DNA of 64,000 bases, taken from Sphaerolaimus hirsutus. Lineage: Eukaryota > Nematoda > Chromadorea > Monhysterida > Sphaerolaimidae. Shown here piece after piece: positions 6,001-44,500 of this stretch. The stretch's first letter is position 1; every line of letters starts with the position of its first letter. The stretch is from positions 7,008,701-7,072,700 of the forward strand of contig OZ038450.1 in assembly GCA_964036195.1 (NCBI GenBank), read 5' to 3'. The notes below the pieces were generated by a model. The model saw only the letters and a list, made by a program, of their open reading frames with translations, had not been told where the DNA came from and made no database searches. The translations under genes were made by a program, and so were the position numbers.

Positions 6001-9000
6001 TCATGTAACCTTATTCATCAAAATATGGTAGCATTCATTGTATAGCGTTCTGTCCATCCAGTATACATGTACCAAACGCAGTGGTTTTCGAGTTAAAATG
6101 GACAAAAATGCATATATATATATATATTAAAAAAATCGTATTTTTTGGAATGGCTCATAATTTACATAAAACAGTAGTCTGTAGTTGAATACAAAATATT
6201 TATATCAGAACGGGAAAACCGGTTACAGTTTATTATAAATACCTAAGTTTATTATCCAACAAAGCCGATTCTCATCCAATCTGCCAACGTTTATGATGCG
6301 AATAGATGAATATTACCACCATTTGTAGGTTCAAACGGGATCCCGATCCCGAATCCCGTAAAATTCCGGAATTTTGTGGTCCTGGTTCCGATCCCGAAAC
6401 CTCAATCCCCATCCCGATCCCGAAAAGTCAATCCCGTTTGAACCCTAACCATTTGTCACCCAGCCGCCCGTGGTACTACTACTTCGCGATCGGGCAGGAC
6501 TTCGTGCTGCGGCTGTCCTGGGTGCTGAACGTGTCCCTGGGCGACATGTGGATCTGGAACGAGCTGGCCGACATCATCCTGTGCGTGACCGGCCTCCTGG
6601 AGTGCTTTAGAAGATTCATTTGGAATTATCTCCGCTTGGAGAACGAGCACGTGAATAATTGCGGCCAGTTTAGGGCTGTGCGCGATATATCGCTCAAGCC
6701 GATTAGGAAGGCGGAGCTCGAGCAGTTGTTGCAAAGGTTTGTGCGGGAGGATTTTTTTGGCACACCGATTTTGGCGGATACTCGTATGATGTTGAATGTT
6801 TCGTTTTTATTTTTCTCGATGCGTTGTTATTTCAACTCCGTTATTATTTATTGGGGTAACTCGGGGAAAACTAGAATTCATACATGGATTCGTTTATTCT
6901 CAACCCATTTCGATTTATTCAGATGTTAGTGTTTCATTTTGAATTCGCCCACTAGGTTGGGCGACGATACGGACTTAAACGGTACAGTACGATAAAGTTT
7001 GTAAAAAGCGGTACACGGTACGGTACGGTAAATCGTCCAGAAATGCGGTATGGTACGGTACGGCCACCCTAGCCCACTCTGAGGGCACGTTACTCGACAC
7101 ACATGAAAACAAATTAAAACCCACCATACTCTCCATTTCTCACAGGATCGATGCTGAAGACGGAGTGACGCACCGGGCGCAAGAACTGCGCGACAACATC
7201 GAGCGCATGCGTCGCAAAGGACAAACCGGCAAGAAGGCTCGCAATCGACTGCAGCTGCGCAAGTTTTCGCGCGGCAGGACCGCCGCCGCGCCCAATCCAG
7301 TTCCGCCGGGTGGGCGGAGTCACGGCGGGTCGGCCCCGCCCCCGCAGGTGCGTAACGCTGTTTGGGGTGGGTCTGGTTTTAGGTTGAGGCATGCGAAATT
7401 GTTTAGAGGATAATTTTTTGTAGATTTGACATTACGAGACGTAAATACCGTAATTACTCGCATAATCCCCCCGGGCAGTTATTTTTTTCGTCAGACTTTT
7501 TTGAAGGGGGCTTTTCGAAAGGGAGGATTTCAAGGGTCTTTTTTGAATTTTGGGGCCTGTCTTACGCTGGAACCAGGCCCTGGACGGAAAAAAAATACAA
7601 TTTACACCTTGCAAATCTCATAACATTAACAGGATCTTTGAGCCCGTGAGTTTGATGCCTGAAATTAATTAGTGAATTTATCGTCTGCGCATGATCAATC
7701 CGCAGGTGGTCGAGTGACAAATAAAAGCGATAAGAAAAGTTAGTGAGCAAAAATACCTGTTACCAAGGGCCCGCACACGCTAGTTGACATCGACACCAAA
7801 TGTCAACTGGTGCCGATCCCGATTCAAAGCTTGCTGACGAGCCGACGATCAACGCTCAAACGCAAGCTTTGAATTGGGAACGGAACCAGTTGACATTTGG
7901 TGTCGATGTCAACTAGCGTGTGTGGGGCTTAAGTGTCACTCTTGACGTACTTAAACGTGTCTGGTCACTTGACCGATTGCGGGTTGGTCCTGGTTGCGCT
8001 TGCACATTCGCTGCACGTATTGCGTTCAATGTCTGCACACAGTTTCTCGGTTGTCTATCCTTTGCGTTTTTCAGATCAGACTTAGACTATTCAAACTATC
8101 ATCCAGAATACTTCTTTTCTCTTTTCAGTTGCATATTTTGTTGACCACTCGTTGATTTTTTCACGGGATGCCTGCATACCCCACTTAAAGGCTCAACGAA
8201 ACAGCATTTCAATTTACGCCACGCCACGCTTATAGGAATGAAACTCTATAAAGCAAGCATCGTCACTGGGCCACCGTTGAACAGAATAAAACAAATTCCG
8301 TGAACCTTTCGTTGCCAGAGTTCAAATTAGACTGGCTTTTCGTGATCGGGACTGATCTTTTAATTTTCTGAAGTAGTGACGGAATAGATCCGGGTCAAGT
8401 GTCACCAAACACCAAAAGCGCCATTCGATAAAATGAGCGGTGTGTCCAGTTATGAAAACTGGCCATCTTGGATTTTTGGCGGGGTCAATGTAGGGTTCAA
8501 ACGGGATCCCGATCCCGATCCCGGATCCCGTGAAAGTCCGGGATTTTGCAGTCTCGATCCTGATCCCGGAAATTTTCAAATCCCGATCCCGATTAGGGTT
8601 GAAAAAAAAACGTTTTTTTAACTCGATGTTTTAAAAAAACAACAACGTTTTTTTTTAAAACAACGTTTTTAAAAAAACAACGTTTTTTTAAAATAAAAAC
8701 GTTTTTTTTAAAGCTCCCAGATATGACCTAGTGTCAACATATATAGGTATATCAGACAGTGGCAATACTCTGTGATGTTAAATACAGGGGTGGGCATCTT
8801 CAGTTACCGCTGGGAAAATGCGATAGATTGAGCTACGGTTGAGCTATCAGAATGAAATTTTAACACAATGGAGTAGACTCCATAGGACACCTATTCTAAA
8901 GTTTGCAACCCAAACGGCCACATTTTGGGTGAGTTGTGGAACACACGGTTTTTAGTGTAATTTTGTGACTTGGCGTCACCCATAGGATAAATCGAGGGTG

Positions 9001-20516: not shown

Positions 20517-22824
20517 GCAGTCTCGATTTCCCGCCGATGCGCGGTGCGCTGCGACGGCGTCGAACTGAACCCCGTTCTGGTGGCTTACGCGCGGTGCACG
20601 GCTTTGGCTGGGGTTCTCTGGGCGGATAGGCCCAGGTTTTACAGGAGGGATTTGTGGAAGGTTGGTGGTGAGGAGCCAATTTATTTATGTCTAATTGTAA
20701 TATTTTAGATTTAATTTGGTGTGTGCTGTCTATGCACCCTGATCTTCTCTTCAAGCACCTATTACGATCCTGAAATGATATTGTTTCTCTTGGTATATTT
20801 AAATTGTCACTCATCCACATTTTTCTTTTTTTTGCTGCCAAACTGTTTCCAATCATACTTCATCCCCTTCAGTTTAACTTTCATATCCCAGGTGAACCTC
20901 TCACCGTACGATGCAGTGGTGTTTTTCGGCACAGAAAATGAACACATGGTAGGTGGTTTGCCCACAATCTTTGCAAGTATATCCACGCATCGACTTTCAA
21001 CAATAGATGCAAGCATTGGCGACAAAACTGAGCGATGAAAAGTCTGTGATGCATGTGCTCGCATGCAGACATCCCATGCATTTTGAGAGTGCCCAGCTGG
21101 CGGACAGGTAGATACCGTATTACCTCGAAATACCCCCATGAGGGTTAATGATTCGCTAGAAAAATTTGAGGGGGGTTTATTAGTGGGGGTGGTATTATTT
21201 CGTCAGAAATTTTCGTAAGGATCGTACTAAATAGTAGGCATTTCAGTATCCAAAACAGGTAATAAGTGTGTCCAAAGAGGATATATTTGGACATAAAAAT
21301 GTAAATAGCTACACAAACTAGTCTGTGTAGCTGCAATGCAAATTAGTAGTAATAACTACACCATGTATGTACATTGCATACTGTTAAGGGCATTGCCGAC
21401 GCAGCATGTCAGCCCCTAATAGTGAAGAGCCCAGCCGCCTCTGTAGTCTAGTGGTTAGGGCACCCGTGTTCTATACAAGAGGTGCGGGTTCGATTCCCGC
21501 CTGAGGCAAGTGCAATTTTGCACTCTTTCTGGTGCCGCGACCGTGGATCATACGACGACGCCTGACCATCACACATGGCTGGCCGAGTGTGGTCCGAACA
21601 CCGGTCTTTAAACAGCACGGATATCCATCCGCTGCTTACCCCTACATAAGCACGATGTCACGGATGACATCTCCGCAACGCCGCGAGGTGTTAAGGGCAT
21701 TGCCGACGCAGCATGTCAGCCCCTAATAGTGAAGAGCCCAGCCGCCTCTGTAGTCTAGTGGTTAGGGCACTCGTGTTCTATACGAGAGGTGTGGGTTCGA
21801 TTCCCGCCTGAGGCAAGTGCAATTTTGCACTCTTTCTGGTGCCGCGACCATGGAACAAGAGACCTGACAATGGAACAACAGTCCAGCACAACACAGTGAA
21901 CAACACAACTGGACAACAACAATCAACCCTTCAACAACAACCCAAACACAACAAACACAACCAACTCCAAATACAACATCAGAAATCACAACCTGCTCAA
22001 CACAGTCAAGCACAACCTTCTGCTGACTACAACAGGCAGTCTCACAGAGCTGCACAAGCCTGCAATGGTGCCAGACTCAGAGAGATGGCATCCACACACC
22101 AACACAACTTGCACCATTCAGTGGGTCACACAGAGGGCCACCAGCACAACTGGTTCTGGAGTGTATTAGCCACACAGACACTGGCAGCAAAACAGAGCTG
22201 TTCATGGGCAGTCAATGGTGTCACTGGGAGGGCAGAACCCACCAGTTATCTACAGCTTTTAAACTGTAGTCAATGGATCCAGTATCCATCAACCAGGCAA
22301 ACAGTGCAACTACACAAAAACAACAGAGAGCAGTAACATGAACTTGATGTATGAACTCGATCTTGAGTATTTGGGTCAAATACTTCTTGTGCCCCTAGGA
22401 GTTGAGTGTGTGATTGTGAGTGATCACTTCCATTGAGTGATATCCCATTTGAGGGCTGTATAAGTAGCACACATAGGCCAGTACAAGAATAACGAGTGAA
22501 CAGTCCACAATGAATACTGAATAAACACAACAACACCAGCTGGCTGCAACATGGGGCTGAGGGACCCCGAAACAATTCCCTTAACTATACATGATGTACA
22601 TCATTCCGGAGGAGGGGGGGTATTTCGAGGGGGGTCATTATTTCCCAAGCCGATTTTGAGGGGGGGTCAATTCGAGGTAATAAGGTTGATCCCTTTGTAA
22701 ATTCTGTGGTTCTATTTTTTTATGATCTAAAACGTTTGAAAATGTCTTCAGGTGGCGATTGGTGGATGAGATTGGTGCTGGGGTCGACTGCATTTGGATG
22801 TATAGAAGAGTTGTTGCTGATTGA
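20517..22824 (+). CDS. ATPSCKMT: ATPSCKMT/FAM173-type lysine methyltransferase, 3' exons
   Basis: Exons: 20517-20660, 20892-20948, 21007-21107, 22752-22824 (stop TGA), phases 0,0,0,2. Family members trimethylate a lysine of the mitochondrial ATP synthase c subunit or related targets. The visible part begins just after the GSGDGR SAM-binding loop. It has GVELNPVLVAYARC, then RFYRRDLWKVNLSPYDAVVFFG, then KLSDEKSVMHVLACRHP, and the terminal GAGVDCIWMYRR, which matches the family GEGIDTVWAYD region. The N-terminal half (membrane anchor and SAM loop) is missing from my model. The last intron consists almost wholly of a transposon starting six bases after the donor. Identity is strong. Which FAM173 paralogue it is remains uncertain. 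Confidence 0.85.
21437..21508 (+). tRNA. tRNA-Arg(TCT)-like sequence, likely pseudogene or SINE head
   Basis: 72 bases with A box TAGTCTAGTGG and B box GGTTCGATTCC. The acceptor stem has one mismatch, the T stem is perfect (GCGGG/CCCGC), and the anticodon loop GTTCTAT gives TCT. The anticodon stem CCCGT/ACAAG has two mismatches, so it is unlikely to be functional. It sits in a repeat unit. Confidence 0.6.
21744..21815 (+). tRNA. tRNA-Arg(TCT)-like sequence with intact anticodon stem
   Basis: The second copy has a perfect anticodon stem CTCGT/ACGAG around GTTCTAT (anticodon TCT), and a T stem with one wobble (GTGGG/CCCGC). The acceptor stem GCCTCTG/CTGAGGC keeps the same single mismatch. No CCA is encoded. 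The fold is plausible, but its place inside a transposon makes a SINE promoter module as likely as a working tRNA gene. Confidence 0.65.
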
Positions 22825-25438: not shown

Positions 25439-28400
25439 ATGTCTCGCATCAGGCTCTATTGCTATGCGACTGTAATTGAATTGGAAATTGACAAAAAGCA
25501 AGGTGTGGCCAAAACATGGGAGTTGTTTCCAAGGACTTACACATTCACTCAGAGTTCCTGCTACAAAGATGGTGAATCGAAACCGTTCAAGTTAGTTCAA
25601 TGTCTGCTAAATGCTTTTCGCATACTCATTTCTATTTTAGCACAGCATTTGCTAAACAAATAAAGGTTGCTTCATCTAGGTAAAAGAGTTTTCACCGTTT
25701 AGTATGAATCCAAAAAATGGTTTTTCGAGCTCAAACTTTGAATAATATCTGCGTCGCGTGTTTCTCACATCATGTCTAGTGATGTAGAAGCGCCATGGCG
25801 CTGGCCGCCTGGCGCAAGCGCCAAAGGAATTAGCGCCATGGTGCTTGGCGCCATTATGCTGTGGCGCTATTGGCGTTTGGCGCTAGGGGTCGTAAAAGCG
25901 CCATGGCGCTTTTGGCACTTGGCGCTTTTTTCGCAAAGCGCAACGAACAAAATTCCTGGCGCTAGCGCCAAAGCAAAAACCGTCATGGCGCAACTGGCGC
26001 TTGGTGCCATTTTGGCACCAAAGTCCTGGCGCTTTTCTCATCACCTGGCACCGAACTATTAATGTTCCTCGTGGAACAGCCTGTAAAACCATTTCACATT
26101 ACGACTGCTGTAATTTGTGTTGTAAATGTTTGTCAAATGTGACTTCACCGAGGGTGTAGCGGCCGTAATGAAAACCCGGCCGTAATGAAAGCCTGGCCGT
26201 AATGTATTCCCACCCGGCCGTAATGAAAGCCTGGCCGTAATGTAGGGGATGCTACATTCCGGCCGGGCTTTCATTACGGCCGGGTAGGAATACATTACGG
26301 CCAGGCTTTCATTACGGCCGGGTTCTCATTACGGCGAGGCCCCCGTCGACCTTCTATTTGCAATTAAATTATTATATTGTAAACGCACAGGGATCGGTTC
26401 CCGCTCAATGCCAAAATATTCATTGTTGTGGATACTGGCTCCAATAGTCCAGAAAGAGTACGGATGGTTGTTCCGCATTCTGCAATCAATGAAGTGCAGG
26501 GAAAAGTTTTGCATATTCAGGCAAGGGGCATCAGGGAATACGCCATAGTTGGCATCGGGTGGCAAAATGCTGAGCAGAGGAAGGTTAGAAGAATGTGGTT
26601 AGATTACAGATAAATAAATACATGAATATGTTGACTGAGGAAAATGTAAATAGAGTGCTCCGACTTCTACTATGTATTTAGTCGCACCGTTACCATGTTC
26701 AAACTTCTGAGCCCCCACCAAAAACAGCAGGCAAACATTTGCTGTTATGTGTACCACTCAGATTTAGAAAATACCGTATTTCCTCGAAATACCCCCCTCG
26801 AAATGCCCCCCACTCGAAAACCCCGCCCCTCAAAATAGGCACTATGAATTTATAAACCCAGCCCTCGAAATACCCCCCACCCAATTTACTGTATAGAGAA
26901 CGTAATGCGGTTTGTGGTCTGGGAAACGCAGAACACACGTTTAAAACAATGACTGTGTTCTGTGAGAAGAGGGTTTATAGCGTCTACGTACATATATAAG
27001 TCTATAGTATCTTATAAATGGCGGTTTTTGTTGCATTCTTCGACATCTGTGTACATTACAAGCAACAATTTCGTACTGGGATATCGAAAAATTTCTGGCC
27101 AAATAATAACCCCCCCTCGAAATACCCCCCTCTCGTTTAACCCCCACCCCCCTCAAAATTTCCACTCTGAAAAAATAAACCCCCGGGGGGGGGGTAATTC
27201 GAGGGAATACGGTAATTGTAATTAGTAAAGTAATTGTCATATTTTTAGTACAAAGTGTAAATATATAAGTAAATATGAATGGCAGGAATTTACACATGTA
27301 TGAGGATGAGCTGCATTTCAGGGGGCATTCCCAAACCCTGTAAAATGCCCTGTATAATGTCAAACGTCGTGCAAATTTTGAAAAGTCATGTAAAATGCCC
27401 TGCAAAGGGCAACTCGGTTGCCATTTTGCAGCGCATTTTACATGACTTTTGACACTTTGCATGACAATTGAAATTTTACAGAGTCGGGGAATATGAATTG
27501 CGCTAGCACTGTCAAAAGCGCTGTTACAAAAAGAACCCTTTTCACAATAGTCCATCTGAATAGCTGACAGCTTGTTAGAAAGTTCTTACGCAAGTGCTTA
27601 TACAAAAGTTCAAAAGTCATGCAATGTTTGGACGATTTCTTCTATTCACAAGTTGTGTATACAAGATACATTGTTAGGGGTTGCTTCTGTCAGCGCGGCA
27701 TCAACTACACAGGAAAAATTTCAACATGATAAATTATCGAGATTGTGCGGTTTACATCCTAGATATTTACTTTAAAAAATTATAAATTATTTTTACAAAT
27801 CCACATGCTAAAAATTGCAGGCAATTTTGACAAGAGGATCAATACTGAGAAATGAAAGAACCAGGAATGTGACATGCAGGACAGAAAGTGAGAATAGTGA
27901 AAGATATGCACCGATTCCAAATTGGTTGAATGTGGGGTGTATAGTTAAGCTCCTAGTTGGTTATTTTTGCATGTGTTCATCATTTTGTGAAACAGATACA
28001 CTCATATCAATCTACTGCTTTTTTTCAAATTCAGGCAATTCCAATTCCTCCAATATCAAGAGATAATGATGATGTGTACAGAAATCTTTGGAGTGACAAT
28101 TTGGATGGCACCAGCTTATTTGTATTTTCATATACTCAAGGGGGTGAAACAAGGGAATGGGTCACCGTTGCACCGGTTTGTTGTTTTATAGAATACTGAT
28201 ACCATATTTCTTCTAATAGAACGGCATACCTCCAATTGAATGGCACCTCCAATAGAACGGCAGGTTTTGGCACGTTTTTGCGTTCACGAAAACAATAGAA
28301 TGGCAGCCTCTAATTGAACGGCACCTCCAATAGAACGGCAGGTAGGACTTATGTTGGGAGTGTGCCAAAACACAAACAATACATTGATGCTCTGATATCA

Positions 28401-29881
28401 AAATATTGCTCAAGCTTCATTAAAAAATAATGGTGTGTTGATATGAGAAATCTGTGACAAAGTTGATGAAAAAAATAGAACTGCATGGTGTGTTGATATG
28501 AGAAATCTGTGACAAAGTTGATGAAAAAAATAGAACTGCAGCCTCCAATAGAATGGCACCTCCAATAGAACGGCAGGTAAAAAAGTTGACGAAAAAAATA
28601 GAACGGCGCTCTTCAAGAAATACGGTATTTAAACTGGGGGCACAAAAATCAATTTTTGGCTTATAGTGGGGGCACCACCGGGGGGTGCACTGATACGCAC
28701 ATCTGCCCGTTACGCACATTTGCCCGTTTTTTCCACTTGACACTTTTTTAAGTGATTTCCAGATATAAGTGAAGTGCAAAACGCTGCGCAATGACATTAG
28801 TGAACTTTTTTCACTTCACTCATATCTGAAAATCACTTGAAAATGTGTCAAGTGAAAAACAGTGAAAAATGGCTATTTTTCACTGTTTTTTTCTTCACTT
28901 GACACATTGTCAAGTGATTTTCAGATATGAGTGAAGTGAAAAAAGTTCACTAATGTCATTGCGCAACTTTTTTTCACTTTACTCATATCTGAAAATCACT
29001 TGTAAAAGTGTCAAGTGAAAAAAACGGGCAAATGTGCGTAACGGGCAGATGTGCGTATTAGGCCTGCCCCGCACCACCGTAGCAGACGGTATCTTTAATC
29101 ATTTGGTGAATTCCAATTTGAAAAAGCCACCACGTTAATACGCCAAGTTTGTCTTGCATACTTAATCTAAACTAGCATCAAAATGTATTTTGCAGGTATT
29201 TCCGCAGCCGGTACACAGGAATTCCAAAGTGGACAGCTGCACTAATGGAGATGTGCAAAGTGTCAAACATCAGGTTGGCCATTAAGTTCTTTATGTAGGT
29301 AGTTTTTATGCAGGATCAAGGAAGTATAGGCATCATTCTTCTTGAACCCCACTAACAACACAGTATGGTGTCGGTTGGAATTGTGCTTACCAATGTCTTG
29401 TGCACAAGTGATAATAAAACACAAATAGCTCAGCAATAATCTATCCATAAAATTAAATATGTATTAAAATGTATTAAATGTGTATTAAAATGTATTAAAA
29501 TTTTGCATAAATATGTATATAATAACCATTTATTTTACGATTATTTTAAGGGCATAGAATGTAGATGTGTAATTTTATGTAACCCCAGTATAAACAATAG
29601 AAGCGTATACTGTGTCATTAACAATACCTATTCTTATTACACGAAATGGTTTCCAGGATGCACAAACACAACCTACACACAAGCAATCGAGAGGCACACA
29701 GACTGCATCAATGCCAATGGAGCCGCGTGAAAACCAGACGATGCAGGAAAATGCCCACATGATAGAACTGAAAGTAGCTGCCACAAAAAACCTGCAGCTT
29801 TTCAGTCTTCTACGGCAGCATACAAGCAGAGAGTTTATGTTCAAATTGTTGAATACTGGTTTGCCAGATAGAAAAAGCTAG
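25439..29881 (+). CDS. Unrecognised protein, paralogue A, 6 exons
   Basis: Exons: 25439-25590, 26391-26583, 27821-27931 (donor tentative), 28035-28175, 29196-29273, 29657-29881, giving 299 residues in a consistent frame. I do not recognise the family. Each exon matches the gene at 36666-38082 in order and nearly always in phase. Shared features: FPRT in exon 1; (K/N)IFIVVD near residue 58; AILT opening exon 3; A(I/V)PIPPI then DNDDVY at 153-167, followed by LDG; and a C-terminal LF-x-LL-x3-TS-x2-FM near 273-286. No signal peptide or membrane segment is evident. Introns are full of transposons, yet the exons keep good splice sites, so it is probably expressed. Start: the first ATG in the conserved exon. 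An upstream exon, as in paralogue B, cannot be excluded. Confidence 0.72.
25772..26055. repeat. GGCGC-rich palindromic MITE
   Basis: Dense GGCGCCATGGCGC words bounded by TAGTGATGTAGAAGCG and CATCACCTGG. It lies in intron 1 of paralogue A. Similar blocks are at 41310-41445 and 55190-55300. The open frames are repeat artefacts. Confidence 0.65.
26150..26345. repeat. CGGCCGTAATGAAAGCC direct and inverted repeats
   Basis: About ten copies of GGCCGTAATG(A/T), first direct and then inverted around about 26250, making a strong cruciform or hairpin. It ends 45 bases before exon 2 of paralogue A. Confidence 0.85.
26772..27215. mobile_element. TA-CCGTATT element
   Basis: Ends TACCGTATTTCCTCGAA and TTCGAGGGAATACGGTA with C-rich blocks inside. 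It may be one element or two adjacent remnants. It lies in intron 2 of paralogue A. Confidence 0.6.
27320..27490. mobile_element. Fold-back MITE, ATTCCCAAACCCTGTAA ends
   Basis: Complementary arms built on GACTTTTGACACTTTGCATG words. It is the same family as 37739-37882, which forms an intron of paralogue B. It lies in intron 2 of paralogue A. Confidence 0.7.
28201..28627. mobile_element. TA-CCATATT element with AATAGAACGGCA repeats
   Basis: Ends TACCATATTTCTTCTAATAG and AAGAAATACGGTA. Subterminal words CCTCCAATAGAACGGCA are repeated, and a 68-base internal duplication is visible at 28430-28545. The copy at 42005-42437 is inverted. It lies in intron 4 of paralogue A. Confidence 0.7.
28686..29070. 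repeat. Multi-armed fold-back with CACTTGACAC words
   Basis: Outer arms ACGCACATCTGCCCGTTACG pair with the sequence near 29030-29060. Inside are further complementary copies of AGTGATTTTCAGATATGAGTG. It lies in intron 4 of paralogue A. Confidence 0.75.
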
Positions 29882-29981
29882 CGGTTCGGTGATGTATCCA
29901 TTGCTCTTATTATTTACTGTAAATATAATATTGATCATTACAATTTACAAAGGATCGATCAAGAATCCAATCTGGTCTGCC

Positions 29982-30376
29982 TACCATATTACCTCGAATT
30001 ATCCCCCCTTGAATTAACTCCCCTCAAAATAGGCTGGGGAAATAATACCCCCTCCCCCTCGAAATACCCCCCCTCCGGAATGATGTACATCATGTATGCA
30101 ATGTACATGATGTATTTATTACTGCTAATTTGCATTGCAGCTACACATAGACAAGGTACCTATTTTGTCTGGTTATCTAGATACGTTTTTATGTTTAAAT
30201 AGCTATACCCTGTTTGGACACATTTATTACCTGTTTTGGGTATGCAAATGCCTACTATTTACTACGATCCTTACGTAAATTTCTGACAAAAATACCCCCC
30301 TCGAATAACCTCCCCCCCTCAAATTTTGCTGGTGAAATAATAAACCCCTATGGTGGTATTTCGAGGTAATACGGTA
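29982..30376. mobile_element. TA-CCATATT element, complete copy
   Basis: Ends TACCATATTACCTCGAA and TTCGAGGTAATACGGTA. It has C-rich subterminal tracts and the internal GCATTGCAGCTACACA and ACTATTTACTACGATCC words common to this subfamily. It begins about 100 bases after the stop codon of paralogue A. Confidence 0.8.
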
Positions 30377-30536
30377 TTTGAATAGGTAGCTCCGACATGT
30401 TCAGATATGCCAAATTTAACTAAGAAAGCCCCCAGTAGTTTTATAATTCTAGGCATTACAATCCAGGGTTTGGATCTCTGGATATTTAGTTACATATACC
30501 CCCTGGATTACAACTATGGGTTATAGGGTTGTTCAC

Positions 30537-30957
30537 AGGAATTACAGCTCAGTGGCGTTTGACGTGAAATGATGACGTCGTAAAATTGATTACATCAAAA
30601 TAGACAAAGGTACAGCATTGAAATTTCAGAATTAGATAGTTCTAGTAATTGTGTGTAATGTCCCAAAATAATTTTTACCAAATAATCATTATTTAAGTAG
30701 TTTTTAATTTAACGTCAAAATTTTTTGGTGACGTAAAATGTGTGACGTGAAATGTTGATGTAGAATGTGTAAATTTTGACGTAAAATCAATAACTTATCA
30801 AAAAATAATTATTTTCTTAATTTTTTTAGGACATTACACACAATTACTAGAACTATCAAATTCTGAAATTTCAACGCTGTACCTATGTCTATTTTGATGT
30901 AATCAATTTTACGATGTCATTATTTCACGTCAAACGCCGCTGAGCTGTAATTCCGGC
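30537..30957. mobile_element. Fold-back element, GAATTACAGCTCAG ends
   Basis: The arms GGAATTACAGCTCAGTGGCG and its complement enclose GACGTAAAAT-type words. About 420 bp, no coding capacity. Confidence 0.75.
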
Positions 30958-31628
30958 TTTACGGTTGGAAGAACATGTCATCTCTTCATACGCAAAGCAT
31001 GATATCATTCCTTCCAGGACCATTTCTGTAAATTATAGTAGTGTAAAAATATTATACTCAAGTCACTATGAAATTGTGCCAAAACACTTTTCTGCATTTG
31101 CTTCACATCAGTAATATTTGAATCTAAATAATACTTACTCCAATGTACCAAAAAATGTTTGACATACACTCAGCGGAACGCAAAGTATGTGCAGAATCCT
31201 ACCATAATTCAATGAATAATATATTGTGATAAATTTTTCTGCCTGTCTGAGTATAAGTGTAAATTGTTTGGCACTCTGCTATCATATTTATTAAATCGAC
31301 ATCAATGTTCGTCATGTCTTCTTTGGTGGTCAATTCTACTTCAATAAGTTTTTACACGGGTTGAGCTAAAGAATAAACCAATAAAATATTTTGTATGAAT
31401 TTTTTACACGTCCCCCAAAAATAACTGCTCTGGGGATATAAATAATCATATTTTTATCTCGCCAGCAAAATTTGAGGGGTTATAATACTATTTTGTCAGA
31501 ATTTTCACGTTTTCTTTAATTGCCGATTTAGACCGAGACAGCTACACAAAACAGTTTTTTTTTTTAGCTGCAATGGAAATTGCCGGTAATATTTGCAGCA
31601 CGTAAAATACAGGGCAAAAATTATGATA

Positions 31629-31958
31629 TACCGTATTACCTCGAATTATCCCCCCCTCAAAATGGGTTGGGGAAATAATAAACCCCCTCGAATTAACCCC
31701 CCCCCCCCCCTCGGGAATGATGTACATCAGGTATGCAGTGTACATGATGTATTTATTACTGCTAATTTGCATTGCAGCTACACATATCCTATTTGGACAC
31801 ATTTATTACCTGTTTTGGGTACTATTTACTACGATATTTATGAAAATTTCTGACGAAATAATAACCCCCCTCAAATAGACCCTCCTCGAATTACCCCCCT
31901 CTCAAATTTTGCTGGCGAAATAATAAACCCCCAGGGGGTATTTCGAGGTAATACGGTA
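31629..31958. mobile_element. TA-CCGTATT element
   Basis: Ends TACCGTATTACCTCGAA and TTCGAGGTAATACGGTA, 330 bp, same subfamily as 29982-30376. Confidence 0.8.
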
Positions 31959-33390
31959 GTTACATATTTGCATAATTCCTAAAGGCGTATTTTGAGGAAG
32001 TTCACTCCCATTCACTTATTTTTTCACGGCTCACTCAGACCCGCGTTTTTGGAGGGAGGGTGGCTTTATTCCAAAGTTGTTAAAACGAATTTACGTTTAC
32101 TCGATAAACATGTATAGTCGAGTACTGCGTAAATGCGTTTACGTTTCCCCCCGAAAAAATATCGCTACTCACTTCTCGCGTACTTTTTGAAAGTACGCGA
32201 GTACAGAAAACGTAATTACGAGAAAAATTTGGGGTTCATAAGAAGCAAAACCACTCAGATGAATTTAAACGGCTGCAAAAATGACAGCGGAAATTATCGA
32301 AGTTGGTATGGTTAGGGAAAGCGCATCTCTCGCTTTCACTCTTACTAATTTTTACATATTCCAGGTACAAAAAATCGTTGCTTTTACGTTTTCCCTGAGT
32401 AAAAATACTGGTATTTTCGTTTACTCACCTTTTACGCAGTGTAAAAGTAGAAAAAATACTTTACGTTTTCTGTACCCAGGAGTGAGTAAAATGAAATACT
32501 TTACATTTACTTAGAACAAAGTTCACTACTTTTAAGAAGTCTGCTTAATTCAAGAATTCAATGAAGTTTGCCCGAGGATTTAAAGTGAGTGACAGTGAAA
32601 GGTTAAAAGAAAAATAAATTTAGAAGTGATAAGTGAAATGGAAGTGAACAAACGTTTTTTAGCGTTTTCTTGTCACTTGCCATTTCACTTCTTATTTTTA
32701 AACTCATTAATTGTCTTTCTTTTAACTTTTTGCTTAATACTTTTTTCTTCTCTCTTGTAAACTGTTTTTACTTCTCCACTTGCGATATTGGTAATAGCAC
32801 CGAATGAATGAATATCAGGCTGAAAATGATTGCGTGTATCCAAACACTGATTGGCTTGAATAAAAGAAATTCATGGCTGTGTGCGTTCCAGCTGCGTATT
32901 ATACCACTCTTGCAAAAAAAACATACCGTATTTAGGACGTGGCCTAACAAAGGCACTTCTAAAGCTAATTAAGTAAACAATACGAGTGGAAGTAACGTTA
33001 TTGTACACAGGTGTATGCTAAAAATTCCGTTCCTATGACCCCGTTTCTCTTTCTCCTTCGGTCCAATTAATTACAAATAAATAGATCAAATTTTGTTGAC
33101 ACGATGTTCAGTTGATTGCCGGAGTTCTTATATTCACATTGCCAGTGAAAACGTCTGTGCGTGAAACCGTCAAGTTGCTGGTGTATACTTGCCAAAAAAA
33201 TTTTCTCCTCTAGTCGTTATGCACCTTGGCGGTGCCAAAACTTGGTTCCCTTCATAACTTGGAAAATTGCCAAAATATTACAGATGTTTGTGTTTCGGCC
33301 TAACTATCACAGTTCACAGTCATAATTGCCTACTAAGAGAATGAATCTGATCTAGATGCCCTACAGTCGACTATTTAGAAATTGATCCAA
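31959..33390. other. Intergenic repeat remnants
   Basis: Contains TTTACG-rich sequence (32090-32520) also found at 34100-34280 and 44500-44940, where it occurs in both orientations, plus AAGTGA-type words near 32580-32780. No exon with a convincing splice context was seen before 33391. Confidence 0.5.
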
Positions 33391-36300
33391 ATGGCAAAAA
33401 AGTTGAAGTCATGGCTTGGTGATATTTTCAAGAAAAAGGAAAGGCCATGTGATAAAATTGAAGGACAATTCCCAACTGATCGCAGTGAGGAATCTCTATT
33501 TCGTGTTGGACGCAATCTGCACTATCATCGGTTATCTGAACGGCTGGTCGCTGCTCGAAACGATTTTTATCAGGTATTGCGTACAAAAAGTTTACCGTAT
33601 TTCCTCGAAATACCCCCCGGGGGTGATTGTTTCAAAGTGATAATTTTGAGGGGGGGGGGGGGGTTAAACGAGGGGGGGCTTATTATTTCGCCAGAAATTT
33701 TTTGAACTCTCAGTACTAATTTGTCGTTTGTAACGTATGCAGAGGTAGAAAAATGCAAGAATAAGCATCATTGACTAAAAGAGTGACGAGTGACGAGACG
33801 AGTGAAGAGTGACTAAAATTAATGTTCAGTTTGTTTATTTATTGAAACACAAAATGCCATCATCACTATCTCCCTCAGACAACATTCTATTCTGTCGTGT
33901 ACAGTATGTTTGCTATAGTCGGCGAACATCACACTTTCACACACGCACAGTATGGAAACCCACATGGGACAGAAAATGTCATTTTGCCAGACAGAAAGTG
34001 GCAAGCGTAAACATGACATTTTCCTTGGAAATACTTATCAGGAGAGAAAAACACATCTTTGATATATTTCAAAGTACAAATTGAAAAACACCTATTTTTA
34101 TGTTATTTTTTGTGAGAAAAATACTCACTTTTACGTTTTATGTGAGAAAAATATCAATTTTTACATTTTCCCTGGAAAAAATACTCATTGTGACGTTTTC
34201 TCTGGAAAAAAAAGTTTTTTATTCACCCCTTACGCAGTGTAAAAGTAAAAATAAAATACTGTACATTTGCCAATTCCTGTACTGTACAGTGCCAGTTCCA
34301 CAAAATGAGAAGTGAGAAGTGACTTGAATTGGCAAAGGCAAAAGGAATTGGCAGATGATATGGCAAAAGCGAAGAGAAATAACATTTAATTTTAGTTTTT
34401 TACTTCCCTTTTGCCAATTCACTTTCCGTTTCACTTCGCCTTTGCCATTTCACTTATCACTTTTCATTTTGTGGAACTGGCCCATGTTCTCATGTGTGAG
34501 TAAAATAAAAATTATTTATGTTTACATTTACTTCAAAAAAAGTTCAGTACTTCTAATGCATTCATGATGTCTGATAATTTGCTCCACTCTCACCGTTTCA
34601 CTCTTGTAGACTCAAAAGGAATTTCGAGATTCATGGACTGGAAACGATGTAGGGCTGGACTCATTACACTGGGAATCCACTAGATGCTACAAGGGTGATG
34701 CATCGATCAACCGGCTACCACCAATATCCAATGCGTCACATAACTGTGGACCGACTTCAAGTTCAACACGAGTGGCAAAGTCATCCATACCATGTTATAC
34801 AGAGGATTTATCAACACCGGGCTCAAGCGGTTTGTACAACTCTCCACTTAGCGGTTTGTACAACTCTCCAATTTTTTTAAGCAAGGCAAATTTTTTAGCA
34901 GTGATTCATATCGAAGGTGAATATTGAATAGTGAATTGAAGTTACGGAATGTTTAATAGTGATTTTGAAGGTGAATATTAGCAATTTTGAGTAAAAATTG
35001 GGGGAAAAATCACTCAAAATTTTCTCGACATAAATAAGTAACTGAGTGATTGGGGGGGGGGAGCCTGGGATAGTAGCAAAAAAATTGTTTTGGGATAGAT
35101 GGATAGCTAAGCAGCCTCTGGGTTAGATAGATAGCTCTCCGATTGGGAGGGGAAGATCCATCCATTGAAAACCCCCTGCAATGGATCTGTATATCAAGTG
35201 GGTTTACATGTCTGGGGAGCTTACGAGGTGTAGATCAAGAATCAATGTATATGTATTATATATTTTGATCAACTAAAATTCTTATAAGTTTTTGAGCTGA
35301 TAAAATGAAAGAGCGCTGCATCTCAGATCCGCTGGGTGCCTCAACACAGGATGCAGCAAAAAAATCAGCAACAACAACTGGCATAAAGCAAGGTACAGTG
35401 ACAACGTCGGCCCAAGTAAACAATGTTGATGTGAAAACCATGAGGCAAGTTGAAATAGCAAAACCAGCCAAACCAACTCAGCTAAAGCAGGGAACAGTGG
35501 CAAACTCAGCCATAATAGCTGCCTTGACAGCAGAAAGTGCAGCACCAAAATCAACACCAGGGAATCAACCAAACCATAGGACAGTGCCAAATTCTGCCAT
35601 AATAGCTGCTTTGACATTAGGGACAGCAGCAAAGTCAGCAACAGAAACTCAGACAAAGGATGAAACAGTGACAAAGTCAGCAACAGAAACTCAGACAAAG
35701 GATGAAACAGTGAAAATGTCAGCAACAGAAACTCAGACAAAGGATGAAACAGTGAAAAAGTCAGATGCGAGAGCTTCATCGGCACAAGTTGCAGCAACAG
35801 CAGCCCAGACAAATCATGAGATAGTAACAGACTCAGTGAAAATTGTGCCCTCGACCCAATGTACAACACTTAAACCAGAAACATCAACACAGACAAAGCC
35901 AGAGACAGTGACAAAGACAGTGGCTTCATCAAAAATGGCCTCATCAACACAAAGTGCAGTCATAGCAACAACATCAGCAAAGCAGGAAAAACGGGCAGTT
36001 ACCAGCTCAGTACAACTGGCTTCCTTGATGCAAGCTACGGCAAAAATGACAACAAAATCAACACAGCCAAAGCATGAAACAATGACAGACTCAAACCAAA
36101 AGGCCATCCAAAAACAAATTGCAACACCAAATGCAGGAATATCAACACAATCAAAGCAAGAAAAAGTGACAAGCTCAATTCAGAAGGCTTCCTCAACACA
36201 AAGTAAAGCACAAACATCAGCAACATTAGCACAGCCTGAGCAAGGGCCAGGGACAAATTCAGATCTAAAGGCAGCATTAACAAAAAGTTCAAATCCAAAA

Positions 36301-38082
36301 CCAGTCACATCTACTCAGTCCAAGCAGGGTGCTATGCCAAACTTAGCTGCAACAGATACTTTAGAACAAAGTAAAATTACTGCATCAAAATCAGGAACAT
36401 TAACTCAGCCAAAACAAGGTGCAGCCAGAAACTCAATACCAATGACTTCAACAACACAATGTATAATATCAAAATCGCCTCAGCCAAAGCAAACTGTTGG
36501 ACAAAAGACACTGGTTCACACAAAAGACAATGCACCAGGAACCTCTGACCCATCAAATCACTTCACCAAAAGCGGATCACAATTTGACACACTGCAAAAG
36601 GTAACTCATTGCGCAAATCGATCATCATTTACAATTTACTTCATATTTCCATTTGACTCTTTCAGAATGGCAAGCAGCATTTTCCAAAGGATACTTCAAA
36701 AAAAGTAAAATCAGGATTCACGCGGCTGTATTCTTTTGCTCGGATTCTCAGCATAAATGACAAGTATGGATATGCTGAAACTGGGGAAAAATTTCCCCGG
36801 ACGTTTTACATTGATACTTCATCAGACTGGTACACCTGCACAGATGAAACATTCAGGTAAAACTCTTGATAATGCAGCATTTCAAAGGGCATATAAAATT
36901 ATTTATTATATTTCAGTCAAAAATACCCAGTGGATTCAAACATCTTCATAGTAGTCGATCACCAGAGGCATGGGCAGGTCATTAATGTGGCCATTGTTGC
37001 AGCTACTGAACTCACTCAACTAGTCAGGGTGGGTAAAGTCACCCACACACATAAGGCTGAAAATCAGGGCCAGTCAAAAACCACAGCTATTGTGGCTTTC
37101 ACCACTGATTGCGGGGAGCATCACAGGGTAAGTAAACATTATCTAAACATGATCACAGTGCCCTTGTCCAAAACAATAAAATTTCAGGCCATCTTGACAT
37201 GTGCATCATTTCATAGGGAACACCATGAGTACCATTCCGAGCCATCGTGCCGCACAGAAAAAAGTTGTGATGCGTACATGTATGAAAATGATATGCAGCT
37301 GCACACTGGTGATCTTTTGAAGTTTCTGGTTGGTAATGTTTTAAGTTTCTGGGTTTAAAGATGAGGTGTATTTACACATTTCACCAAAGCACAAAATTAA
37401 ATTTCGGGCAGTCCCCATTCCACCAATCGGTAAAGACAATGATGATGTTTATGCGGACATCTGGACAAAAGAATTAGATGGCATAACTTTTTTCATCTAC
37501 TGGTACTATGAAATCGATGCATATCAGTTTGCACAGGTTGGATAAATTGTTTACTCTGGTATTTAAATATGTTCTGACATTAATTGCGGACATTTACGCA
37601 GTGCACACGGGCATACAGAGAATCTCAGTCGCGGCGGCACACACCAGTCAATAAGATTGAACGTGAAAAAACACCCACAGATCATTGGGCACAGATGAAA
37701 GCGATAACCAGCACTGCTAGCGCTTCAACCCAGGTGCCACTCCCAGACCCTGTAATGTATAAAATGTCATGCAAAGTGTCAAAAGTCACGTAAAATGCCC
37801 GGCAAAATGGCAAAATAGTTAGTCATTTTACATGACTTTTGACACTTTGCAAGACTTTTTACACTTTACAGGGTCTGGGAGTGCCCCCAGGCACCTACCA
37901 AGGTATCAACACACGCTCAAACAGCGGAACCTGACACGGAAAGTGGCATTCCAACCAGAAAAATGGCCAGTATAAATGGTGCAGCCGAGCTAAGGGAAAA
38001 AGCTCTTTCCAATAAGAGATTGTTTGAGCTACTTCACAAGAACACAAGTCCGGCATTCATGTACAGCTTGTTCAACCCATAG
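33391..38082 (+). CDS. Unrecognised protein, paralogue B, with S/T-rich region
   Basis: Exons: 33391-33573, 34610-34829, 35312-36600, 36666-36856, 36917-37127, 37188-37332, 37361-37536, 37602-37733, 37891-38082. All phases agree, giving about 912 residues. Function unknown. The first two exons are basic then mixed and are less certain; a start at ATG 35305 is the alternative. Exon 3 is a 430-residue Thr/Ser/Gln/Lys-rich, probably disordered region, with three copies of a 14-residue unit containing TETQTKDETV. From residue about 565 the protein matches paralogue A: FPRT, NIFIVVD, AILT, AVPIPPI with DNDDVY and LDG, and a C-terminal LFELL with TSPAFM. Oddities: the intron at 37333-37360 would be only 28 bases, and the last intron is a transposon. 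It lies in the same orientation as paralogue A, 3.5 kb downstream. Confidence 0.7.
33593..33740. mobile_element. Partial TA-CCGTATT element
   Basis: Starts TACCGTATTTCCTCGAAATAC in the first intron of paralogue B, about 20 bases after the donor. The right end is not clear, so it is probably truncated. Confidence 0.5.
34289..34483. mobile_element. Fold-back, GTGCCAGTTCCACAA ends
   Basis: The arms begin GTGCCAGTTCCACAAAATG and end CATTTTGTGGAACTGGCC, filled with AAGTGA words and their complements. Same end type as 38152-39017. Confidence 0.65.
35635..35761 (+). repeat. 42-bp in-frame tandem repeat, three copies
   Basis: Units at about 35638, 35680 and 35722 encode SATETQTKDETV plus two variable residues, inside the S/T-rich exon of paralogue B. 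The copies are almost identical, so copy number may vary between alleles. Confidence 0.85.
37739..37882. mobile_element. Fold-back MITE making up an intron of paralogue B
   Basis: Ends ACTCCCAGACCCTGTAA and TTACAGGGTCTGGGAGT, with inner arms built on GACTTTTGACACTTTGCA. It occupies 144 of the 157 bases of the intron 37734-37890. Removing that intron joins two in-frame coding parts. Confidence 0.85.
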
Positions 38083-38151: not shown

Positions 38152-39017
38152 GGTGCCGGTTCCGCAAGTGGACAAGTTAAGAGTTAAAAGTTAAGAGTTG
38201 AGTAAAAAGACAAATGGCGAGTTAAGAGTAAAGTTAAAGTTTAAGAGAAAAGTTAAAGTTTAAGAGAAAAGTTAAAGTTTAAGAGAAAAGTTAAAATTTC
38301 AGAGAAAAGTTAAAAGTTGAGTTAAATGTTAAGAGTTGAGTTAAAGGTTGAGTTAAAGGTTAAGAGTTGAGTTAAAGGTTAAAAGTTGAGTTAAGAGTTA
38401 AAAGTTGAGTTAAGAGTTAAAAGTTGAGTTAAGAGTTGAGTTAAGAGTTGAGAGTTAAGAGACAAGTGGAAAATGATGGTAAAAAAATATAAAAATATGA
38501 AATTGGTATCGATACGGCTGTTCGCTGGCATGGTGCCAAGTTGTATGCACGTCATTTGAAAATAACGTATCCAAAAAAATTATCGCTAAAAAAAGAAAAA
38601 ATCGCCGAACGTTGTTTTGAAATGGCCGTGCGGGGACAAAATATGATTGAAGATCAGCATATTGCGCTTCTGCAACGAATGACCCATTTGTCTTTTAAAT
38701 CAACTTTTAACTCATCTTTTAACCTTTAACTCAACTCTTAACATTTAACTCAACTTTTGACTCAACTTTTAACCTTTAACTAAACTCTTAACATTTAACT
38801 CAACTTTTGACTCAACTTTTAACCTTTAACTCAACTCTTAACATTTAACTCAACTTTTGACTCAACTTTTAACCTTTAACTCGACTCTTAACTTTTAACT
38901 CAACTTTTGACTCAACTTTTAACCTTTAACTTAACTCTTAACTTTTGACTCAACTTTTAACCTTTAACTCAACTCTTAACTTTTAACTCTTAACTTGTCT
39001 ACTTGCGGAACTGGCCC
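38152..39017. mobile_element. Fold-back with TTAAGAGTTGAG arms and an ORF-like centre
   Basis: The left arm (38152-38470) starts GGTGCCGGTTCCGCAAGTGG and is filled with TTAAGAGTTGAG-type words. The right arm (38695-39017) is its complement and ends ACTTGCGGAACTGGCC. The roughly 220-base centre is not repetitive and reads as a charged open frame. Confidence 0.8.
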
Positions 39018-41523: not shown

Positions 41524-44500
41524 TCAGCCCTCGCCCAGACCCTCAAAAACCTTGACACAGTACTGATGCAACTCGGCACTTATAAGAATCTCCTGCACGG
41601 GCCTGTCGAACTGGTCGGACACGATGTGCTCGAACGCGTCCGCCACCAAGGGCAACATCTTCGCCAGCGGCACAGCTGCCTCGCTGCTTTTGTCGTTGTT
41701 GTTGTTGCTGCTGCTGGGGGCGGAGTCGTGCCGTTGCGGCAGTCGCCGCTGCACGAAATCGCACGCGCACCGCGTGAATGTGTGGACGCAGTGCGGCGTC
41801 AGTAATCTGCGCGCGGACACTTTGTTCGATCCTGCTCGTTGTGTATGCAAATGCACAAACCACGAGCTACCGTGCACGGACATCCTAGCTTTGGCTATGC
41901 TTTGCCATGTGCCGCACAGAAATTGCTATAAATTTTGTGTGGCTTTTCTGTCAATCAGGCGTTTTTTACCAAAAAATGACACATAAATAGTATTAAGCTT
42001 TATTTACCGGATTTTTTCTAATAAAAGAGCACCGTCCTATTTTTGTCGTCAACTTTTTTACTTGCCATTCTATTGGAGGTGACGTTCAATTGGAGGCTGC
42101 CGTTCTATTTTTTTCATCTTTTTTCCAACATTTTTCATTTTAACGAAAAATGAACAACATGTTCACTTCAGAGCATCTGAAGCATTTGAACAAAACCAAG
42201 TGAAAAAACCAGTAAATCATAGTTTTGAACACCTTGTTTGTACTTACCACCCACTGTTTCTAGTATTTTTGGGTTTTGGTACTATTCCAACGTAACTTCT
42301 AAATACCTGCCGTTCTATTGGGGTGCCGCTCTATTGGAGGCCGCCGTTCTATTCCTTTCGTGAGTGCCAAAACCTGCCGTTATATTGGAGGTGCCGTTCC
42401 ATTGGAGGTATGCCGTTCTATTATAATAAATACGATAGCTCAAATCCGAAAACTGACCCCCGTCTGCACAACTGACCTGGCATGGTGGCACTGCAGCGCG
42501 GCAGTTAATCGTTGCAGCAGCACGGAAAGTCGCTGCGTGTGCGCCGACGCGAAACCAGTCGTTTCCACGGCTGAAGGTGGTACTACCAACTCGCTGCGAG
42601 GATGTGTATGGATGAGGCGGTGGGGGTGATTACCGTATTTCTCCGTGTAAAGCACCCGGGTGCTATACAAAATTGAGACCCTTTTCAGCAACCTTTTTTA
42701 AAAAGTTGTATAACACCCGGGTGTTAGGTCAGGGGGTGTTATACACGGAAACACCTCCTAATTCATCGGATAGGACAGCGGATTTCTATTTATGATACAG
42801 GTCCCTACATATTTAGGCTTTTTTTGGTTCTCAGCGTGCAGCAATTCAATGGAAAAATGCGTGCCGCCGAATTACAATGAGTGGTGCGCGCCAGCACAAT
42901 ATTTAAGCAAATTCAAATAGGGTGATCTTTTTGAAACCAAGCATAGCACCCCGGGGTGCTATGCAGCTGTGTAACACCCCGGGTGTTGTGCACGGGGGGG
43001 TCCTTAACACGGAGAAATACGGTACAGGAAAGTTTAGCGACGACGATTTTTTAAAAAGTTTCATATGTATGTAGGAAAAATGTATGTTTTTGTAAAAAGG
43101 CGGTGAAGGCTGAAGCATAGGTAAATACATACTGCTTGAGTGTACAAACTGTAAAGTTAAAGATGATTTGTGCTTGTCGCTCAGAAGTTACGGTCTTTTA
43201 AATAATTGTAAAATACATATGTTGTCGCGGCCGCGACTGAGCTGCGACAACATAAATTTTGTCTTCACAAATTACGTATCTGAGATGGAATGATGAAGCA
43301 AATCGGATCACTACTCAATAAGGAATTGTAGATTATTAGTTGATCCAACAGTTGCACAGCAAAACCCACAACCTCCAAGACTGAAAGTTGGGCAAATGGT
43401 GACCAACCTGAAATTTCTGCAGTCACCATCCACGGTGGCTTGCGCCACTTGCTTGAGCATTTCCCCCAACTCAGCGACGCTAACTCTTGTCTTCAGCGAC
43501 CAATTCTCACTGCATTTCCGCGCCGCCGTACGCACACGATCAGCTAGTGACGCTATGCCGTGCGTCAAAAAGTACTGGATGCACTGGAGAAAAAGCTGTT
43601 GCGCTTGGGCGTCAACTGAAGATGAGTTGATTTCGAAATCCAAGCCTGAGGGGAGGAAAGTTTGGCTTTTGGATCGTGTGTATTCAAATACTTAAATGAC
43701 AGCCCTATCGGAGGCGTAAATACATGTACAGCTGGCAGGGCATGGGTAAATAGTGATAACTTTTCACTTTTTGACATTTATTTGACATTTTTGTTACTTT
43801 CAAAAGTGATTACTTATCACTTTTTGACATTAATTGCAGTCATAGTAATTACGATTCCAATAATGTCACATTCATTCATTGAAAAATTTTTAACTCTTCA
43901 AGTGTCACTTTTTAAGTGCCAAAAATGTCAAGTAGTCAAATAGATGTCAAAAAGTGTAAAGTAAATACGACCCCTGATACATGTCGCGCGGGTTCACATG
44001 TCTAAGTACGTCGTAATATTCAACGAATTGGGTGCGCATTTGAGGAGAACCGTAATTCAAAGGGGACTTAATTTTCAACAGAGATTTAATGAACATTATG
44101 GCTTCAATGTTTAGGAGTTCAATGCCAAGTGCACCACAGAAACTGATCATAAAAAACCATATCATCATAAAGTGATCAAAACCAACCAACCATTAGCAAC
44201 AGACGTCTCACCACTCTGTTCATAACCCACGAGACTCCACAGTTTATCAGTGAGGCCCTGCAATCTTTGTATGGGCTGAGCGCTGAGCGAATGCGCGTAG
44301 ATGTCAGCGGAAAGGATTGACACTTGCGCCTTGAGCACGGTGATGATGATGCTGTATGTGTAGCTGGTGCACACGATCCGCCCCATGGTGCACACCTACG
44401 CGATTTTACGTGGTGCAGTAGCGCGCAGATTATTGGCAGTATTGATTTTGGACAGCGAGGATGAGAAAATTTATCGTCATATTTATAGAGTTGTTAGAGG

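Follow-up and report, generated by a model that had tools for sequence, protein, structure and literature searches.

Possible double OB-like barrels and probable LC8 motifs in an unnamed gene family of the nematode Sphaerolaimus hirsutus

In Unr/CSDE1, as reported in PMC7383231, cold-shock-like barrels that lack RNA-contact motifs and are missed by the Pfam profile PF00313 occur in series, alternating with canonical domains, and a scaffolding role has been proposed for them. Panoramix (Drosophila PICTS), which acts in silencing by PIWI-interacting RNAs (piRNAs), has a poorly conserved, disordered N-terminus and two conserved C-terminal TQT motifs, and is dimerised by LC8, called Cut-up (PMC7861614). 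Serial TQT motifs in a disordered arm also bind LC8 in ASCIZ/ATMIN (PMC5963919, PMC10046861), a zinc-finger transcription factor (PMC5963919). Here we describe two neighbouring genes, A and B, in a 64-kb window of the Sphaerolaimus hirsutus genome (contig C1:7008701-7072700; the coordinates of A, B and their surroundings are positions within this window). With a probability of about 0.45, we read them as intact-looking members of a small family under selection, whose products would be double OB-like proteins paired by LC8.

As in Unr, the barrels proposed for this family would follow one another without RNA-contact motifs and escape PF00313, a likeness taken from description. Unlike Unr, the family shows no canonical cold-shock domain, and it has a QT-bearing tail, whereas the text of PMC7383231 used here mentions no LC8 tail. 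The tail resembles that of Panoramix, and the N-terminus of gene B may be disordered as well; any parallel to a piRNA silencing factor is by analogy only. The B extension, as we propose it, would recall the ASCIZ arm, but no zinc finger was found in the family proteins. We thus treat Unr and Panoramix as analogues, not as relatives by any test made here.

Gene A (25439-29881, + strand) comprises six exons and encodes 307 amino acids, gene B (33391-38082, + strand) nine exons and 904 amino acids, both with GT-AG splicing. An ATG and a stop codon are present at 25439/29881 and 33391/38082, and the spliced exons are open throughout. The last six exons of B correspond in identical order to the six exons of A, the five shared introns are phased 2,0,0,0,0 in both, and both proteins hold FPRT, (K/N)IFIVVD, AILT, A(I/V)PIPPI with DNDDVY, LDG and a C-terminal LFxLL..TS..FM. 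The original prediction, made from the letters of this stretch, of two co-oriented genes sharing six ordered exon blocks and these motifs is thereby borne out, and the intron phases it had called mostly identical agree at all five positions in the new models. Since splice sites were picked by eye with the homology in view, the phases are not fully independent evidence, and a phase-1 alternative is also available at the B exon 6/7 junction. The features of the two genes are as follows.

25439-25590, + strand: gene A exon 1, ATG, first half of barrel 1 (FPRT), followed by a GT..AG intron of phase 2
26391-26583, + strand: gene A exon 2, closes barrel 1 (KIFIVVD) and opens the second region
27821-27955, + strand: gene A exon 3, middle of the second region (AILT; NVGCIVKLL)
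28035-28175, + strand: gene A exon 4, AIPIPPI..DNDDVY..LDG
29196-29273, + strand: gene A exon 5, variable linker
29657-29881, + strand: gene A exon 6, QT motifs, conserved C-terminal segment and stop codon
29759-29851, + strand: conserved C-terminal segment of A (MIELK..LFSLL..TS..FMFKLL)
33391-33573, + strand: gene B exon 1, B-specific extension, a single-sequence prediction only
34610-34853, + strand: gene B exon 2, B-specific extension, a single-sequence prediction only
35327-36600, + strand: gene B exon 3, extension, rich in T/A/S/K/Q and probably disordered, with a 42-nt in-frame tandem repeat
36666-36856, + strand: gene B exon 4, equivalent to A exon 1, barrel 1, FPRT
36917-37127, + strand: gene B exon 5, equivalent to A exon 2
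37188-37328, + strand: gene B exon 6, equivalent to A exon 3
37390-37536, + strand: gene B exon 7, equivalent to A exon 4, AVPIPPI, DNDDVY and LDG, exact 5' end uncertain
37602-37733, + strand: gene B exon 8, equivalent to A exon 5, terminates in STQ
37734-37890, + strand: gene B intron 8, almost entirely one inverted-repeat element
37891-38082, + strand: gene B exon 9, equivalent to A exon 6, HAQTA, C-terminal segment at 37984-38076 and stop codon

The two genes had been taken for a two-member family, which does not hold for the genome of 348,482,957 bases on 762 contigs. Of the 13 matches from a search with the B core, eight were in B and A and four on contigs C13 and C15; the last, on C16 (E 7.2), was dropped as chance. 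Genes C and D lie in tandem on a common strand of C13; gene E lies on C15, where no start codon was found for it in the region read; and gene F, about 150 kb from E, is a partial copy of E of which only exons 4-6 were found. C, D and E share the six-exon plan of A and its phases 2,0,0,0,0, and C used as a query gave 18 matches and E 15, all at the A-F loci. In all, three clusters of two were recovered, with at least five genes that appear full-length and a single partial copy; these counts are lower bounds from three protein queries over 348 Mb. Two successive introns of E have apparent GC donor sites, CTG/GCAAGT and AAG/GCAAGT (L026 8059-9836).

Homology of A-E is secure by sequence comparison: a profile of A and B recovers C, D and E at 1.2e-27, 4.9e-23 and 1.5e-19 (best of 300 shuffles, 0.59), and the converse profile of C, D and E recovers A and B at 2.3e-25 and 1.8e-23 (best of 300 shuffles, 0.54). 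A and B are 30-33% identical (BLASTP E ~1e-30) and score 109 bits against each other, compared with at most 77 bits for either against C, D or E. Since they are adjacent, co-oriented and each other's closest relatives, the tandem duplication put forward in the original prediction is supported.

We propose that exons 1-2 would encode a five-strand OB-like barrel of the cold-shock/S1 type (barrel 1) and exons 2-4 a second, possibly related barrel ending in PIPPI..DNDDVY..LDG. A fast-evolving, probably disordered linker in exon 5, one or two QT motifs near the exon 5/6 junction that would bind the dimeric hub LC8 (DYNLL), and a conserved, probably helical C-terminal segment would follow. The first domain is probably an OB-type barrel, judging from AlphaFold models of contiguous B DNA translated with the first two shared introns (60 nt, in frame) included and with exon pieces of relatives as alignment rows. 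For barrel 1, the 101-residue model (8 rows) has a mean predicted local distance difference test score (pLDDT) of 61.5, with residues 11-30 at about 80, and forms strands at 4-16, 20-25, 32-36, 78-86 and 93-100, most of the translated intron falling within a low-confidence loop at 40-64. The 207-residue model (12 rows) has a mean pLDDT of 53.6, with residues 11-40 at 74-86, and two of its three low-confidence stretches lie in the second region. The 50 Foldseek matches listed for barrel 1 include LysRS, S1 domains, eIF5A, IF1/eIF1A, RPA, CST and Rim1; among those listed, we take the neighbours, as whole proteins and by estimate, to be mostly OB-fold or OB-containing. The cold-shock pattern (strand, turn, strand, strand, loop, xxGxxVxxxV) also fits barrel 1, and a second pattern of this kind may lie in exons 2-4. 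Local hhalign comparison of barrel 1 with the second region gave P 0.0034, so that an internal repeat is a marginal call from the aligned sequences. Exon 1 had earlier been read as an EVH1 domain, a view given up in the light of the five-strand barrel seen in the models.

Several results weigh against this assignment. Confidence is low in both models by mean pLDDT, in-frame introns were translated as part of both modelled sequences, and in the alignment for the 207-residue model the exon-3 rows were misplaced. Foldseek against the PDB returned 598 and 785 matches (E up to 10), all with E above 0.001 and with no control model. The comparison with known folds suggested in the original prediction yielded a low-confidence five-strand barrel and no significant neighbour. 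The hhalign probability for barrel 1 and the second region is 9.6% locally, and globally P is 0.028 with a probability of 0.9%. Furthermore, Pfam AGA2 matched one of five members, not A, at 3.7e-4.

The same family, with LC8 binding as proposed, might therefore have a core that is not OB but another beta-rich module (KOW/SH3-like or EVH1/PH-like) or a new fold, which we consider unlikely, though a serious contender. No fold match is significant, the second region is poorly modelled, and it weakly matches eL14 (E 0.093, 0.075), as would fit a small barrel of any class. The eL14 likeness is local, to the GxV..GEKLVAVV stretch of the second region, and its best PDB profile match (E 0.075) is not significant; we take eL14 to be a KOW-type barrel. 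Yet barrel 1 has, in both models, its strands in an order that fits a cold-shock/S1-type OB fold, and the listed neighbours are mostly OB. The OB-like core remains our preferred reading.

An OB-like core here would in any case differ from classical cold-shock domains. PF00313 gave no match up to E 10 (HMMER filters on) in A, full B, the five aligned members or the domain segments, and the six cold-shock domain matches of the genome sit away from the family loci. The aromatic RNA-contact motifs (Y/FGF and FFHF; PMC7383231) were not seen in the family at positions placed on the cold-shock domain by eye, where we read GVAKTWE/TYTFTQ, GYAETGE/TFYIDT, SVSVLTM/NFSFGA and VHVQTTE/VLSFED. As the barrels are without these motifs, they are probably pseudo-RNA-binding domains that serve as scaffolds or bind proteins, or else contact nucleic acid only when paired.

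No family in Pfam (whole proteins and domain segments), NCBIfam or PHROGs matched more than one family member, and PDB sequences gave no significant match (for a search with B alone, best E 0.19). Hence the earlier statement that no named family has these motifs holds across these four libraries, and by "unnamed" or "lineage-restricted" we mean absent from them. That the genes have no recognisable domain was true by sequence, but does not fit a first domain that is probably an OB-type barrel and a tail with probable LC8 motifs. PDB profile searches reached best E values of 0.093 for the whole core, 0.66 for barrel 1 and 0.038 for the second region, whose top rows, hemagglutinin HA2 chains and eL14, were taken as chance. 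Matches to Ubiquitin_At1g33420 (0.25), DUF4314 (0.035), TIGR00722 (0.092), PA-IL (0.046, in the B extension), phrog_18935 (0.26) and phrog_14628 (0.07) were set aside because they were weak and occurred singly. Viral contigs, searched with the alignment and one pattern, held 34 pattern stretches and no relative, and prokaryote genome contigs, searched with the B core, 14 pattern stretches and no relative.

The second part of the proposal concerns the tail. QT motifs occur around the exon 5/6 junction, namely DAQTQP and QSRGTQTA in A, STQAP and HAQTA in B, VKTQTS and VSVASQTD in C, MKTQTS and VSVATQTD in D, and GKGTQTE and KQKSTQTD in E. In the second motif, both Q and T are unchanged across the five aligned members. 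The positions in the two genes of the window are given here.

29660-29668, + strand: degenerate first QT motif of gene A (DAQTQP)
29696-29704, + strand: TQT anchor of the LC8-like motif QSRGTQTA in gene A, matching VSRGTQTE at 6 of 8 positions (PMC6607443)
37915-37923, + strand: AQT of HAQTA in gene B exon 9

The genome encodes LC8: nine exon matches to PF01221 all lie above the cut-off, and one reads as a near-canonical LC8, with a likeness to that of animals. LC8 partners are described as bearing an eight-residue motif anchored by TQT, often with larger positive side chains at position -3, and VSRGTQTE was the most favourable phage-display sequence (PMC6607443). Strict (T/S)QT motifs that fit this description are found in the variable tails of A, C, D and E, and four in the B extension. 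Two of them, 11-16 residues apart, are present in each of the C, D and E tails, while a strict pair 8-20 residues apart arose in only 11, 2 and 8 of 20000 shuffles of the respective tails. For comparison, the 53,330 residues in six-frame segments of the window, gene B included, contain 23 (T/S)QT and three pairs of this kind. Altogether, the family tail carries probable LC8 motifs, with tail disorder judged from composition and poor conservation only, and we infer from these motifs that the proteins bind LC8 and dimerise.

Alternatively, the QT motifs could be coincidental or serve another purpose, the conserved tail being simply an oligomerising helix with no part for LC8; we hold this to be doubtful, about as much so as a core of another fold. 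Counting against LC8 binding, the one strict motif in A is within what shuffling produces (p 0.16), the B core has no strict motif but degenerate ones (STQA, HAQTA), and the statistics of C and D are not independent since these are recent copies. Moreover, many TQT peptides fail to bind LC8, and the prediction algorithm is about 78% accurate (PMC6607443). What speaks against coincidence is that the motif pairs of C, D and E are very unlikely in shuffles (with the reservation just made for C and D), that the second QT stays unchanged across the five diverged members, and that the flanking residues in A and E fit published LC8 preferences.

Were LC8 to bind as we propose, it would clamp two chains of A (or of B) side by side into a four-barrel unit and would help the C-terminal segments of the two chains to pair. 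LC8 dimers are described as holding two chains in parallel and boosting self-association, often involving coiled coils (PMC5963919).

With regard to selection, the original prediction had argued from divergence with retained motifs between A and B, where synonymous sites are saturated, so that dN/dS (the ratio of nonsynonymous, dN, to synonymous, dS, substitution rates) is unusable; selection on the family instead emerges from the younger pair. Over 312 codons C and D have dN 0.126 and dS 0.334, giving dN/dS 0.38 (bootstrap 0.26-0.54), with 0.38 when exon 1 is left out, 0.30 for exons 2-4 and 0.47 for exons 5-6, which shows that C and D are under purifying selection. Their introns are alignable only in short pieces, the longest of 84 nt beside exon 1, and introns 2 and 4 do not align at all. 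Between C and D, identity reaches 99.3% in exon 1 and 97.6% in the adjoining 84 nt of intron, as against 74-89% in the other exons, so that a gene-conversion tract at exon 1 is likely. Over nine of the ten pairs (C-D omitted), exon 5 is the least conserved of the six at 15% mean pairwise identity and exon 6 the most conserved at 36%.

It would seem improbable, then, that some copies are decaying pseudogenes in a family whose constraint has relaxed. Pointing that way are the finding of only exons 4-6 of F, the start codon not found for E, and the low mutual identity of the old members, 22-30%; on the other side, the modelled exons of A, B, C and D all read without interruption from ATG to stop, and the dN/dS of C and D is well below 1.

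One copy had further been predicted to have kept or gained an N-terminal extension of 560 residues. The extension is present in B (exons 1-3), with 567 residues in the new model. Its gain by B is the simpler reading, since A, C and D each begin with an ATG right at the shared domain, and tblastn found no relative of it elsewhere in the window or in 80 kb around C-F. It holds the following motifs.

35647-35739, + strand: three TETQTKD repeats in the B extension, with TQT at 35647, 35689 and 35731
35887-35895, + strand: fourth TQT (TSTQTK) in the B extension

With four extra TQT sites, this long arm of B could build larger assemblies. The count of four is not significant against an expectation of 1.67 (p 0.08), and three of the four belong to one repeat, which again tells against the proposal.

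Repeats occur in and around both genes. In B intron 8 (37734-37890), an inverted-repeat element covers 146 of the 157 nt, with 82% identity to its own reverse complement, and the element is related to one in A intron 2 (27348-27490). A de novo origin of this intron from the inverted repeat is not favoured because A, C, D and E carry an intron at the equivalent site. That A-F derive from a transposable element, as a domesticated transposon protein or repeat-family remnants, is barely credible: the region is dense in inverted-repeat and dispersed elements, but three protein queries recover only these loci, at least six in 348 Mb, the genes are multi-exon with conserved phases, C and D are under purifying selection, and no transposase, reverse transcriptase, integrase or gag-like family is among the library matches of the family proteins, the flanks not having been scanned.

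A intron 2 also contains a dispersed element (26770-27215; about 445 nt) in which CCTCGAAATACCCC-type sequence abounds, with 40 long matches at 81-87% elsewhere in the genome (40 of 10,212 candidates of a 2-kb query were scored). Starting about 100 nt 3' of gene B, AGTTAAGAGTTGAG-type tandem-repeat arrays and then reverse-complement arrays occupy 38181-38989. Upstream of A, two tRNA-like genes lie in a dispersed repeat at 21437-21508 and 21744-21815, one with anticodon CTA (called tRNA-Pyl by ARAGORN). A 141-nt query from this repeat gave 40 scored matches (itself included) at 96-100%, of 636 candidates, and we therefore regard the pair (21437-21815) as a tRNA-derived element resembling a short interspersed nuclear element (SINE), not as a suppressor tRNA gene. 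Farther away, EXS matches in four reading frames at 2891-6929, three above the Pfam cut-off, lie with a weak SPX match at 451-822, in a gene that we take to be XPR1-type, and a weak peroxin-3 match below the cut-off lies at 43311-43691.

A more specific picture, to which we give only a slight chance, is that of a lineage-specific, fast-evolving adaptor like Panoramix, in which LC8 would pair two copies and present four pseudo-RNA-binding barrels on nascent transcripts or chromatin, for example in transposon control in a genome full of mobile elements, with short A and multivalent B tuned for assembly size.

Orphan families are common in non-model animals, and few bring a testable mechanism. 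In this one, a QT that stays invariant while the tail around it drifts points to LC8 as the one partner, and the OB-like core suggests a nucleic-acid or scaffolding role. The family also illustrates how barrels without ligand motifs can escape family libraries.

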